DNA from: Cyanobium sp. E1_MAG_00006
GTDB lineage: Bacteria > Cyanobacteriota > Cyanobacteriia > PCC-6307 > Cyanobiaceae
Assembly (NCBI GenBank): GCA_027488975.1
Contig: JAIYAQ010000035.1
Coordinates: forward strand, 1-43,989
DNA length: 43,989 nucleotides
Reading direction: 5' to 3'
Shown here: positions 38,886 to 43,989 of the stretch, piece by piece
How positions within the stretch are numbered: the stretch's first letter is position 1
Layout of the letters: each line of letters opens with the position of its first letter
Program-made: the position numbers and the translations under genes
Notes under the pieces: model-generated
Told to the model about the DNA's origin: nothing
Databases searched by the model: none
What the model saw: the letters and a program-made list of their open reading frames with translations, nothing else

Positions 38886-39668
38886 TCACATGCCGGTGAT
38901 GCAGTAGCCGGCGTCCACGTAGATCACCTGGCCGGTGATGCCGGAGGCCAACGGGCTGGCCAGGAAGGCGGCTGTGCTGCCCACCTCCTCCTGGGTCACG
39001 GTGCGGCGCAAGGGGGCCTTCTCCTCCACGTTGTGGATCATGTGGAGGATGCCGCCGATGGCGGAGCTGGCCAGGGTGCGGATCGGGCCGGCGCTGATGG
39101 CGTTCACGCGCACCTGCTTCTCGCCGCCCAGCTCGGCGGCCAGATAGCGCACCGAGGCCTCGAGGGCCGCCTTGGCCACGCCCATCACGTTGTAGTTGGG
39201 GATGGCCCTCTCAGCGCCGAGGTAGCTGAGGGTGATCACGCTGGCACCCTCGTTGAACAGGGGCTTGGCGTAGCGGCACAGGGGCGCCAGCGAGTAGGCG
39301 CTCACCTCCAGGGCCCGGGCAAACCCCTCCGGGGAGATGTTGGAGTAATCGCCGATCAGCTCCTCCTTGCCGGCGAAGGCCAGGCAGTGAACGAGCACGT
39401 CGATCGAGCCCCACTGCTCCTTCACCCTGGTGAACACGGCTTCGATCTGGGCCGGGTCCTGCACGTTGAGGGGCTCGAACAGGGTGGGGGCCAGTGGCGC
39501 GGTGAGGTCGCGCACCTTGGCCTCGAAGCGGCCCTTCTCATCGGGCAGGTAGGTCACGCCCAGCTCGGCGCCGGCGGCATGCAGCTGCTGGGCGATCCCC
39601 CAGGCGATCGACTTGTTGTTGGCAATGCCCGTCACCAGGGCCTTCTTGCCGCGCAGATCGAGAAGCAT
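38886..39668 (-). CDS. fabI: Enoyl-[acyl-carrier-protein] reductase (NADH)
   Basis: The 260-residue protein, from the ATG at 39668, begins MLLDLRGKKALVTGIANNKSI, the FabI-type NAD-binding start. The SDR catalytic pair Y-x6-K is seen in YAKPLF...ERAIPNYNVMGVAKAAL. The end has ITGQVIYVDAGYCITGM. It performs the last reduction of each fatty-acid elongation cycle. It is divergent from the photolyase-like gene, whose start lies 26 bases away, so the promoters must overlap. It leads a minus-strand series with bestrophin, hisB, carotenoid oxygenase, yciI and SIMPL genes. Confidence 0.95.
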   Translation of the reverse strand: MLLDLRGKKALVTGIANNKSIAWGIAQQLHAAGAELGVTYLPDEKGRFEAKVRDLTAPLAPTLFEPLNVQDPAQIEAVFTRVKEQWGSIDVLVHCLAFAGKEELIGDYSNISPEGFARALEVSAYSLAPLCRYAKPLFNEGASVITLSYLGAERAIPNYNVMGVAKAALEASVRYLAAELGGEKQVRVNAISAGPIRTLASSAIGGILHMIHNVEEKAPLRRTVTQEEVGSTAAFLASPLASGITGQVIYVDAGYCITGM

Positions 39669-39694: not shown

Positions 39695-41029
39695 GTGCAA
39701 TCGCAGGATTCTCCCCCAACCCGTTTCCGTGGCGGCCGCACCGCGGCCGAGGCGGCCCTGGCGGCGATCGATCCGCCCCGTTACGGCGCCAGCCGCAACC
39801 ACCTGGATGGGGCTGTCACCGGCCTCTCCCCCTGGATCCGCCACGGGGTGCTGACGCTGCCGGAGGTGCGCGATGCCGTGTTCGCCTGGCTCGATGCCCG
39901 TGGGTATGGCGCCACGCCCGTGAGCCGAGCCGAGGGCCAGCGCATCGCCGGCAAGCTGATCAACGAACTCGGCTGGCGCGACTACTGGCAGCGCCTCTGG
40001 AGCCGCCTGGGCGACGGCATCTGGATCGACCTGGAACCCCTCAAAACCGGCCACGCCGCAGCCAGCTACAGCCCGGAGCTGCCGGCCGATCTGGCCGAGG
40101 CCCGCACCGGCCTGGCCTGCATGGATGGCTTCTCGCGCCAGCTGCAGGAACTGGGCTGGCTGCACAACCATGCGCGGATGTGGCTGGGCAGCTACCTGGT
40201 GCACTGGCGGCGCGTGCAGTGGCAAACCGGCGCCCGCTGGTTCCTGCAGCACCTGCTCGATGGCGACCCCGCCAGCAACAACCTCAGCTGGCAGTGGCTG
40301 GCCAGCAGCTTCAGCAGCAAGCCCTACATCTTCAACAGGGCCAACCTGGAGCGCTTCAGCTCGGGCCGCTACTGCCGCAGCTGCCAGGCCGCCGCGGCCG
40401 GCACCTGCCCGTTCGAGGCCAGCTACGAGGCCCTGCAGGAGCAGCTGTTCGCGCCGCAGACCCCGGCGCCATCCGGCGGCGCCTCCGGGAACGCCTCCCC
40501 AAACGACTCCGCAAACGACTCGCCATGGCGAGCCACTCCCGCACACTCCGCCAGCAGCTCGTCCTCGAGCAGCCACTCGCCCCGCCAGCCGCTGCTCTGG
40601 ATCCACCATGAAGCCCTTGGCCCCGCCAACCCGGCCCTGCGCACCCACCCCGACCGGCCGGCCCTGTTCGTGCTCGATGCTGCGCCGCTCAGTGCCAATC
40701 GCCTGCGCTTCCTGCAGGAGTGCACCGCCGAGCTACCGCTGCAGCAGCGCCACGGCGTGGTGGCCGAGGTGCTGCTCACCGCCGCCCATGCCGAGGGGGC
40801 CGATGCGATCGTCACCAGCCGGGCGGTCGATCCCCACATCGCCACCATCGCCGCCGAGCTGGAGGCGCTGCAGCGGCACGAGCCGCCCGCCCTGCGGCTG
40901 CCGCTGATCGCCCTGGATCCCGATCCGTTCGTGGAGCTGGAGGAGCCCGTGGATCTGGGGCGCTTCAGCCGCTACTGGCGCCGCGCCGAACGGAGGGTCT
41001 GGGCCGGCTGGGGCCAGGAGCCGAGCTGA
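39695..41029 (+). CDS. Photolyase/cryptochrome homologue with permuted domain order
   Basis: The protein has 444 residues from a GTG at 39695. Residues 10-250 match the FAD-binding (catalytic) domain of photolyases: TGLSPWIRHGVL, NELGWRDYWQRLW, TGLACMDGFSRQLQELGWLHNHARMWLG, then GARWFLQHLLDGDPASNNLSWQW and KPYIFN. A Ser/Ala/Pro-rich linker follows (about 255-298). Residues 299-425 (LLWIHHEALGPANPALRTHPDRPALFVLDAAPLS...RLRFLQE...) look like the alpha/beta domain that normally comes first in this family. Light-driven repair or sensing is the family role; whether this one binds FAD or an antenna is unknown. The divergent fabI start is 26 bases away. Confidence 0.75.
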   Translation: MQSQDSPPTRFRGGRTAAEAALAAIDPPRYGASRNHLDGAVTGLSPWIRHGVLTLPEVRDAVFAWLDARGYGATPVSRAEGQRIAGKLINELGWRDYWQRLWSRLGDGIWIDLEPLKTGHAAASYSPELPADLAEARTGLACMDGFSRQLQELGWLHNHARMWLGSYLVHWRRVQWQTGARWFLQHLLDGDPASNNLSWQWLASSFSSKPYIFNRANLERFSSGRYCRSCQAAAAGTCPFEASYEALQEQLFAPQTPAPSGGASGNASPNDSANDSPWRATPAHSASSSSSSSHSPRQPLLWIHHEALGPANPALRTHPDRPALFVLDAAPLSANRLRFLQECTAELPLQQRHGVVAEVLLTAAHAEGADAIVTSRAVDPHIATIAAELEALQRHEPPALRLPLIALDPDPFVELEEPVDLGRFSRYWRRAERRVWAGWGQEPS

Positions 41030-42298: not shown

Positions 42299-43537
42299 AT
42301 GCAGGTGCCCCCCTTCAGCCTCAGAGAACAGCTGGATCACCTCGGTGAGGAGCTGGATGCCGCCGTACTGCAGGTTCTACGCAGCGGTCAGTACATCGGC
42401 GGCGGGGTGATCGCCGCCTTCGAGCAGGCCTTTGCCGCCGCTGTCGGCACTCCGCACGCCATCGGCTGCAACAGCGGCACCGATGCCCTGATCCTGGCCC
42501 TGCGCGGCCTCGGTGTAGGCCCCGGCGATGAGGTGATCACCTGCTCCTTCAGCTTTTTCGCCACCGCCGAAGCGATCAGCGCCGTGGGCGCCACGCCGGT
42601 GTTCGTGGATGTGGAGGAGAGCAGCTATCTGATCGATCTCGATCAGCTCGAGGCGGCGATCACACCGGCCACCAAGGTGCTGCTGCCGGTGCATCTGTTC
42701 GGCCGCCCGGTCGACATGGAGCGCGTCTGCGCCATCGCCGAACGCCACGGCCTGAAGGTGGTGGAAGACTGCGCCCAGGCCACCGGCGCCAGCTGGGCCG
42801 GCCGCCCCGTGGGCAGCTGGGGCGATGTGGGCTGCTTCAGCTTCTTCCCCACCAAGAACCTCGGCGGCGCCGGTGATGGCGGTGCCATCACCTGCAGCGA
42901 TCCCGCTTTGGCGCAGAGCATGCGCGAGCTGGCGGTGCACGGCATGCCGCGCCGCTACCTGCACACCTCACTCGGCTACAACAGCCGCCTCGATGCCATT
43001 CAGGCGGCGGTGCTCAATGTGAAGCTGCCGCATCTGACCAGCTGGATCGAGCGACGCCGCAGCGTCTCGGCCCGTTACCGCAGCGCCCTGGCCGACGCGG
43101 CGGCCATCCAGCTCCCCGAGGCAGGCCCTGAGGGCCACAGCTGGAACCAGTTCGTGGTGCGTGTGCCCAGCTGCGGCACCAGCAAGGCCTGCGCCACGGC
43201 TAGCGGCAACGGCAATGGCTGCGGCAGCCAGGCCTGCGTGCCCTCCGCCGACAGCGCCAGCTTCGGCCTGCCGGAAGCCGCCTGCCGCGACTGGCTGCAA
43301 AAGCAGCTGCAGGAGGCGGGTGTGATCACGATCATCTACTACCCGATCCCCATTCATCGCCAGCCCGCTTATGCGGAGCTGGGCTACGGCCCAGGGTCCC
43401 TGCCGATCACCGAGCGGCTCTGCACGGAGGTGCTCAGCCTGCCGATCTTCCCCGAACTGAGCGGCGAGCAGCAACAGCGGGTGATCGGTGTGCTCAGTCA
43501 GCTGGTGGGCATGCTCCAGCCGGCGATTGCGGCCTGA
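42299..43537 (+). CDS. DegT/DnrJ/EryC1-family aminotransferase
   Basis: The 412-residue PLP enzyme transfers amino groups to keto-sugars or related compounds, usually for surface polysaccharides. Typical segments are YIGGGVIAAFEQAFAAAVG, CNSGTDALILALRGLGVGPGDEVITCSFSFFATAEAI, the Lys in FSFFPTKNLGGAGDGG and the C-terminal YYPIPIHRQPAY. Unusually, residues about 290-329 form an extra loop with several Cys and Gly/Asn runs (CGTSKACATASGNGNGCGSQAC) where the family normally has a short turn. The product is not fixed by sequence alone. Confidence 0.88.
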   Translation: MQVPPFSLREQLDHLGEELDAAVLQVLRSGQYIGGGVIAAFEQAFAAAVGTPHAIGCNSGTDALILALRGLGVGPGDEVITCSFSFFATAEAISAVGATPVFVDVEESSYLIDLDQLEAAITPATKVLLPVHLFGRPVDMERVCAIAERHGLKVVEDCAQATGASWAGRPVGSWGDVGCFSFFPTKNLGGAGDGGAITCSDPALAQSMRELAVHGMPRRYLHTSLGYNSRLDAIQAAVLNVKLPHLTSWIERRRSVSARYRSALADAAAIQLPEAGPEGHSWNQFVVRVPSCGTSKACATASGNGNGCGSQACVPSADSASFGLPEAACRDWLQKQLQEAGVITIIYYPIPIHRQPAYAELGYGPGSLPITERLCTEVLSLPIFPELSGEQQQRVIGVLSQLVGMLQPAIAA

Positions 43538-43557
43538 GTCAGGCAGCATTCGCTGTA

Positions 43558-43875
43558 ATGCAACCTCCGAGCATGCAGCGAAGCGTCATCAGGCAAAGCC
43601 ACAGCCAGAGATGGCTCCATCGGTTGACCATCAGCCGGCGGAATCGATGGCTGGGTCTTCTGGGTGCCGTGGCGCTTGGCTTGGCGCCGCCGGCAGCGGC
43701 ACAGGGTGTGGTCCGCATCGGCGTGGTCGACGACCAGGCCCCCTGCTCGGATGTCGTCAACAGCAGCTTCAGCGGCAGCGCTATCGACGTCTGGCACCAA
43801 GTGGCCAGCAGAGCCAACCTGCTCCACACCTTCGTTGCACTCCCCAACCCGGACGCGGCCGTTCGCGCAGCTAGC
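43558..43875 (+). pseudogene. Periplasmic binding-protein gene, cut by an IS
   Basis: The start ATG is at 43558 or 43573. A signal peptide (hydrophobic LLGAVALGLAPPAAAQG) is followed by VVRIGVVDDQAPCSDVVNSSFSGSAIDVWHQVAS, the start of a family 3 solute-binding or glutamate-receptor-like domain. About 105 native codons remain before the IS481-type end at 43876; beyond it the frame reads into the IS and stops at 43915-43917. The 6-bp site at the junction is GCTAGC. The remaining two thirds of the gene, if present, lie past the window. Confidence 0.7.
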
Positions 43876-43989
43876 TGTTCTGTCTCAGCAGGTTGTTCAG
43901 CTGACAAGGGGGTGTGAGGCCGCTACGGGTTGAGGTGCGACCCAGCAACCCCGACCTCACGCCTCCATGCATAGCCACCCCAATGCCCG
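43876..43989 (+). mobile_element. Second IS481-family element, left end only
   Basis: The sequence begins TGTTCTGTCTCAGCAGGTTG, identical to the left end at 21456 for the first 20 bases. It keeps the hairpin with one compensatory base-pair change, and the transposase ATG at 43967 (MHSHPNAR, against MHTHANAR in the first copy). The copies differ at many positions, so they are different members of one family. The window ends inside the transposase. Confidence 0.92.
43967..43989 (+). CDS. Start of the second IS481-type transposase
   Basis: Seven codons are visible (MHSHPNA) before the window ends. They align with the start of the transposase at 21546. Identity beyond this point is unknown. Confidence 0.8.

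Follow-up and report, generated by a model that had tools for sequence, protein, structure and literature searches.

The Gene and Its FAD Module

The window (the whole stretch of 43,989 nucleotides of Cyanobium DNA that was analysed) carries a photolyase gene whose product has a FAD module, a linker and an alpha/beta module in that order (Table 1). An initial annotation made from the letters alone had claimed that this frame encodes a photolyase homologue with the FAD-binding half first, and both points hold, with a Pfam FAD_binding_7 match at residues 90–214 (E 1.9e-22; 80.1 bits against a curated cut-off of 27) placing the protein in the photolyase/cryptochrome superfamily and the FAD half aligning structurally with photolyases over about residues 8–255. 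At E <= 10 FAD_binding_7 was the only Pfam family matched by the full-length protein; four photolyase models of NCBIfam hit the FAD half, each scoring far under its curated cut-off. In VIA-align comparisons the FAD half reached Z 17.9 with the (6-4) photolyase of V. cholerae (7ykn; rmsd 3.7, 237 residues aligned) and Z 14.4 with the Thermus photolyase (1iqr; rmsd 3.0, 225 aligned), the seven highest structural-aligner rows all being enzymes of the FeS-BCP type.

Table 1. Position of the photolyase gene and its features in the window.
Feature	Position	Strand	Remarks
Phr6-type fused photolyase gene	39695..41029	+	444 aa, GTG start, TGA stop
FAD/catalytic module, residues 10–252, Phr4-like	39722..40450	+	PF03441 E 1.9e-22; VIA-align
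Ser/Ala/Pro linker, residues 253–296	40451..40582	+	Partly low model confidence, little constrained
C-terminal alpha/beta antenna-type module, residues 297–438, Phr5-like	40583..41008	+	hhalign, Foldseek, PF00875 in relatives
Cys142, first putative Fe-S ligand	40118..40120	+	93/93; a Cys of the own-genome FeS-BCP (L004) aligns here
CxxC-x7-C motif: Cys227, Cys230, Cys238, remaining putative Fe-S ligands	40373..40408	+	93, 93 and 92 of 93
Asn158-His159	40166..40171	+	Asn at the PhrB His366 site, His at the class I Arg site; both 93/93

The AlphaFold2 model of the full-length protein has pLDDT 91.2 and pTM 0.90, the latter suggesting that in the model the two domains are fixed in their mutual placement. 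The linker is rich in Ser, Ala and Pro as had been annotated, with mean pLDDT of 53, 59 and 57 in three blocks spanning residues 261–290, and its dN/dS against two relatives was 3.2 and 0.75. For the C-terminal module, again against two relatives, the values were 0.39 and 0.43, indicating purifying selection; together with the retention in the window protein of all residues conserved in at least 97% of rows, this excludes a decaying C-terminal domain. A relative in genome G004 is 92% identical over residues 1–444 and has the same fused frame, which, with the fused state of 34 of 93 unique loci (see below), excludes an assembly or sequencing artefact.

Upstream lies an enoyl-ACP-reductase-like gene on the opposite strand (38886–39668) with a divergent start, its probable ATG being 26 bp from the photolyase GTG, such that promoters would need to overlap or sit within the opposite gene. 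In many relatives a second photolyase frame is found on the opposite strand a few kb downstream; the window contig ends soon after the gene (43537–43989). The genome's own class I photolyase (L001; G000:C31:1-3110) begins contig C31 with an orientation that would suit this arrangement, so that contigs C24 and C31 may be neighbours.

Identity of the C-terminal Module

The C-terminal part of the protein is a photolyase antenna-type domain, normally N-terminal, as judged from AlphaFold2, Foldseek and profile comparison. Taken alone the stretch has no significant Pfam match, its last 145 residues reaching PF00875 (DNA_photolyase) at only 9.3 bits (E 1.4), under the cut-off, and its module giving no match at E <= 1 in a scan of 38 such modules, so that the case rests on relatives and fold. 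Of these modules 33 match PF00875 at E <= 1 (best 1.3e-5; the window's not included), nine match Usp (best 2e-4) and three match DPRP weakly (best 0.014). Profile-profile comparison by hhalign of an alignment of the 38 modules (A2) with one of eight canonical N-terminal photolyase domains (A3) gave a probability of 94.8 and E 5.1e-8. A PDB sequence search with the A2 profile was weak, finding a single photolyase relative (cryptochrome 8p4x, E 0.0062) followed by calsequestrin at 0.23.

Folded alone, the last 149 residues gave pLDDT 87.5, and all 18 PDB matches of this domain at E <= 0.001 in Foldseek are photolyases or cryptochromes, the first being a Thermus photolyase with 8-HDF. By VIA-align the module scored Z 11.9 with both PhrB (5kcm; rmsd 4.2, 140 aligned) and the Thermus enzyme (1iqr; rmsd 4.1, 137 aligned), against Z 10.0 with the universal stress protein 1mjh (rmsd 3.2, 105 aligned). 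As these values hardly separate photolyase from Usp by fold alone, the sequence evidence decides. An unrelated C-terminal fold, for which structure prediction was to be the check, was looked for and not obtained, and is excluded by the hhalign, Foldseek and VIA-align results. The domain might instead be a Rossmann-like lid without antenna function rather than a moved antenna domain, in keeping with the close score of 1mjh, the Usp matches and the low PF00875 score of the window's own domain, but the hhalign value, the PF00875 matches across most of the modules and the uniform Foldseek result make this unlikely.

Over 292 genomes the A2 profile also matched the stretch preceding the FAD half in a photolyase frame of ordinary size (554 aa, G047; E 4.1e-5), with a second weak match in a frame of 482 aa (G172; E 4.3e-4).

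Fused, Adjacent and Distant Genes

The inverted architecture has been described as Phr6 where fused and as Phr4 and Phr5 where encoded by adjacent genes (Haney et al., 2022; PMC9426592). The genes phr4 and phr5 are adjacent in marine Synechococcus, where their spacing is closely kept, and in half of six Cyanobium strains, while phr6 is a single gene in two Cyanobium strains, with the FAD domain first and four Fe-S cysteines; the same set was noted in Nostoc punctiforme (PMC9426592). Both +1 frameshifting and (6-4) activity were suggested as possibilities for phr4/phr5 (PMC9426592), and a heterodimer of the two products of strain WH7803 had already been proposed in 2012 (PMC3441193).

From 114 loci, 12 without both modules were removed to leave 102, and the removal of nine duplicates left 93 unique loci, window included, one of which (L013) is cut by its contig end and was excluded from the trees. 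The modules are fused in one frame at 40 of the 102 loci and, among the unique ones, at 34 (window included), with 59 separate; the order that the initial annotation had proposed to look for in other picocyanobacteria is thus repeatedly found in relatives.

Haney et al. (2022; PMC9426592) raised the possibility that separate phr4 and phr5 are one gene read by programmed +1 frameshift, such that all members would be fused, which would fit the adjacency and spacing of the genes in marine strains. The junctions make this hardly credible. Among the 59 separate loci, 40 have the two modules in a common frame interrupted by a stop, and 14 and five have the C module in one or the other of the remaining frames; an ATG stands near the C-module start at 55, the genes overlap at 11 and more than 100 bp separates them at 15. 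In WH7803 (L055) both modules are in one frame, with a stop and then 27 bp before the ATG. The junction frames, together with the 18 of 58 genomes that have the two genes apart (below), are grounds for rejecting general frameshifting across separate loci.

Co-occurrence was assessed in 292 related genomes belonging to the window's phylum. Searching them with a single C module gave 58 carriers and with a single FAD module (E <= 1e-25) 60; the FAD-module set includes every one of the 58, and its two additional members (G083 and G188) have inverted proteins lacking CxxC. Apart from the weak matches in G047 and G172, the C-module profile added no carriers among the 292 genomes. The hypergeometric value for co-occurrence (1.8e-59) ignores shared descent and is a guide only. 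Forty of the 58 pairs lie within 5 kb on the same strand, those of G000 and G315 in one long frame. The other 18 are not near each other, with ten on the same contig 0.48–4.9 Mb apart and eight on different contigs, where gene positions place the two modules at least 6 kb apart even were the contigs abutting.

Complete co-occurrence combined with distant location in 18 genomes argues for a two-subunit enzyme that was fused several times in gene order. The permuted domain order reported in the initial annotation is real, but an internal rearrangement of an ordinary photolyase is not the better reading. The window gene is preferably seen as two genes sharing a frame, which most relatives examined have as separate or even widely spaced genes, and as the permuted order is that of the two genes where they are adjacent, it is explained without permutation inside one protein.

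One genome (G329) holds, in addition to an intact pair, a second, fragmentary pair (G329:C1:293235-293917) with 109 residues of FAD module and about 116 of C module, possibly a decayed duplicate. Separate FAD proteins of Nostocales (L073, L088–L096 and others) share a basic tail, about NSQSWQRGKKGK, that is absent from the window linker and may bind DNA or the partner.

Distribution and Trees

A contig scan with patterns from the window protein, biased to close relatives, gave 480 candidates, and among the best 80 the module pair was found in a Chloroflexi-named record (L103, separate) and in Eremiobacterota- and Acidobacteriaceae-named records (L105 and L109, both fused), with the titles of MAG records accepted as given. 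In a plasmid collection four Deinococcus records have a C module at E <= 0.01, three with both modules in one gene and one with two genes overlapping by four bases. On the 669 kb plasmid pDrdI of Deinococcus wulumuqiensis the fused gene adjoins three transposase genes (L175 1-5329), which would fit horizontal spread. Among phage records a search at E <= 1e-5 yielded nothing close to the FAD module: the 10 records found all have below 60% identity and none covers 80% of the query.

Trees were quick and had long branches, with sequences thinned at 95% and 90% identity and loci holding no C module left off the C-module tree. The FAD-module tree of 104 rows needs at least four changes between fused and separate states, two of them forced by well supported branches; a thinned version of 92 rows without the outgroup needs at least five (three forced), and the C-module tree of 81 rows at least six (two forced). 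The three outgroup rows have end branches of 7.6–10 and do not group. With no trustworthy root on these trees, no direction is assigned to the changes between fused and separate states. A pair from a MAG record named for Tatlockia (Legionellaceae; L086) groups among cyanobacterial pairs, probably through misbinning of the contig or through transfer.

Fe-S Cysteines, Active-Site Residues and Lesion Specificity

A cysteine motif after the FAD core (C227, C230 and C238, with C142) had been missed in the initial annotation, as had the published status of the arrangement. These cysteines align with the Fe-S cysteines of the FeS-BCP encoded in the same genome, which on sequence grounds suggests a [4Fe-4S]-type site with four cysteines in the FAD module. 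In PhrB, mutation of Fe-S cysteines gave protein that was insoluble or failed to be expressed (PMC4619345), from which the cluster would probably be structural.

The His in the HNHARM motif, where Arg is usual, had been noted from the sequence and is real; within this genome the class I photolyase has Arg there and the FeS-BCP has Ile. As His159 is found in all 93 unique members, it is no oddity of the window gene. Around it Asn158 is likewise invariant, as are N195, W199 and W201, with W94 in 92 members, E91 in 91 (Gln in one) and residue 162 Met in 85 and Leu in eight. In the window protein E91, W94, N158, M162, N195, W199 and W201 are all identical to the residues of the class I enzyme of its own genome. 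The sites of Asn158 and residue 162 match His366 and Leu370 of PhrB, where H366N abolishes (6-4) repair and the substituted residues were termed CPD photolyase counterparts, the His being needed for (6-4) repair in PhrB and in eukaryotic enzymes (PMC4619345). These CPD-type residues predict specificity for CPDs rather than (6-4) lesions, contrary to the suggestion of Haney et al. (2022).

According to that suggestion the protein would be a (6-4) photolyase, its Fe-S cysteines marking an FeS-BCP-like function (PMC9426592). Disruption of phr4 in Synechococcus RS9916 lowered survival of UV-C 20–30 times with no measurable effect under UV-B, and as UV-B yields relatively more CPDs than UV-C, (6-4) specificity was favoured (PMC9426592). 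The four conserved cysteines, the FeS-BCP-type enzymes heading the structural rows of the FAD half, the weak DPRP matches in three C modules and the top structural score for the C module, which PhrB shares, point the same way. The essential His is, however, Asn in every one of the 93 members and the Leu370 site is mostly Met, and no N-terminal DPRP domain was matched by Pfam in the window protein, whereas the FeS-BCP of its own genome (L004) has one; (6-4) repair is accordingly a doubtful assignment.

The protein could also have lost repair while keeping the fold, acting instead as a light sensor or in UV protection that needs no light. E. coli carrying the phr4/phr5 region survived UV-C better, with no significant difference between light and dark (Haney et al., 2022; PMC9426592), a result not expected of an active photolyase and one that counts against light-driven repair. 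Near invariance of the CPD-site residues among the 93 members speaks against a loss of repair, leaving this reading quite improbable.

Predicted Function

The window gene is probably a Phr6-type fusion within a photolyase family of inverted topology, for which light-driven CPD repair is predicted. The working mechanism of the FAD and alpha/beta modules is inferred from knowledge of the photolyase family. The FAD module would bind reduced FAD and take the lesion into its pocket, with the alpha/beta module docking on it to cover the site as antenna or lid and, if pigment-bound, to feed it energy. Light received via the antenna or by reduced FAD would then lead to electron transfer and splitting of, most likely, a cyclobutane pyrimidine dimer. 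CofG- and CofH-like frames are present in the window's genome, both under their curated cut-offs, and 8-HDF may therefore be available and is a possible antenna pigment. In most of the relatives examined two proteins from adjacent or distant genes would assemble, while Cyanobium-like picocyanobacteria, Deinococcus plasmids and a few MAGs encode them as one chain in which the FAD module leads, following the order of the two genes.

Against this reading stand the UV-B-insensitive loss of phr4 and the FeS-BCP structural matches, together with M162L in eight members and E91Q in one; the NCBIfam scores below cut-off and the weak PDB sequence search with A2 are further points against it.

A wider reading is put forward tentatively and may well be wrong: inverted photolyases at their root would be light-driven repair enzymes of two subunits, one of them a detachable antenna protein, encoded far apart in about a third of the cyanobacterial carriers examined yet retained together in all of them, and joined in reverse several times, with the NewPHLs having lost the Fe-S site and their antenna having decayed into the Z-domain. 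If true, short photolyases would be reduced or partnered enzymes and not single-domain ancestors of the whole family. A separately encoded, working antenna domain would show that light harvesting and catalysis are separable photolyase modules and would be relevant to the claimed ancestral status of short photolyases that lack an alpha/beta domain, and as such the wider two-gene pattern matters more than one added fused member. The active-site residues provide sequence grounds for testing CPD instead of (6-4) repair.

Comparison with Known Systems

The class I CPD photolyase of the same genome (L001) shares the lesion-site residues and both domain types with the window protein, but has the ordinary order, no Fe-S cysteines, Arg in place of His159 and a longer C-terminus of the FAD domain. 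The FeS-BCP or prokaryotic (6-4) photolyases (PhrB, CryB) have four cysteines at the aligned places and give the best structural matches to the FAD half, but have a DPRP N-terminal domain, the ordinary order and His at the Asn158 site. Membership of either group is thus contradicted, in the first by domain order and in the second by the absence of DPRP and of His366, while the CxxC motif separates the window protein from the NewPHLs.

Short photolyase-like proteins (SPL), reportedly described by Xu and colleagues in 2021, have a FAD module but lack the N-terminal alpha/beta domain, and four cysteines occur in some of them. The window family differs in having an alpha/beta partner, fused behind or encoded elsewhere. 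Descriptions of SPL are given in PMC9178010, PMC9498864 and PMC13274461.

NewPHL (Phr7) proteins, reportedly described by Emmerich and colleagues in 2020 and treated in PMC9426592 and PMC13274461, share with the window protein the inverted topology and a related FAD module with HNHARM. The NewPHLs examined have no CxxC Fe-S motif, and their C-terminal Z-domain has no significant match to the window-type C module, with hhalign of the C-module profile against seven Z-domains giving a probability of 4.6 (E 0.009), against 92.5 (E 4.8e-7) for two intermediate C-termini. The seven Z-domains against canonical N-terminal domains gave 2.8 and the two intermediates against the Z-domains 1.7, so that evidence for the Z-domain being the same domain as the C module is suggestive only. 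In G274 a FAD module without the four cysteines (L180, 678–1493) is followed by a separate C module (1506–1922), a pair that is intermediate between Phr4/Phr5 and the NewPHLs. The two intermediates whose C-termini were compared by hhalign are inverted photolyases without CxxC, on a Persicobacter plasmid (L187, 2194–2556) and in G083 (L177, 819–1157); their C-terminal domains match the C module (probability 92.5) and end in an F-x-x-[YF]-W-like motif, near the FSRYW of the window protein. One possible NewPHL (L188) proved to be an ordinary photolyase and was not used.

Phr6 and Phr4/Phr5 have, like the window protein, an N-terminal FAD domain, a C-terminal photolyase alpha/beta domain and four Fe-S cysteines; no structural difference from the window protein was found, and the WH7803 pair (L055) is among its relatives. 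The domain order, two-gene form, Fe-S site and heterodimer idea are already in print, and the window gene is a further, ordinary fused member. No account of distant but co-retained genes, or of the module pair outside cyanobacteria, was found in the part of the literature searched, which is weak evidence of novelty. Added here to the known Phr6 and Phr4/Phr5 systems are the co-occurrence of distant genes, the spread beyond cyanobacteria, the junctions that speak against frameshifting and the CPD-type residues.
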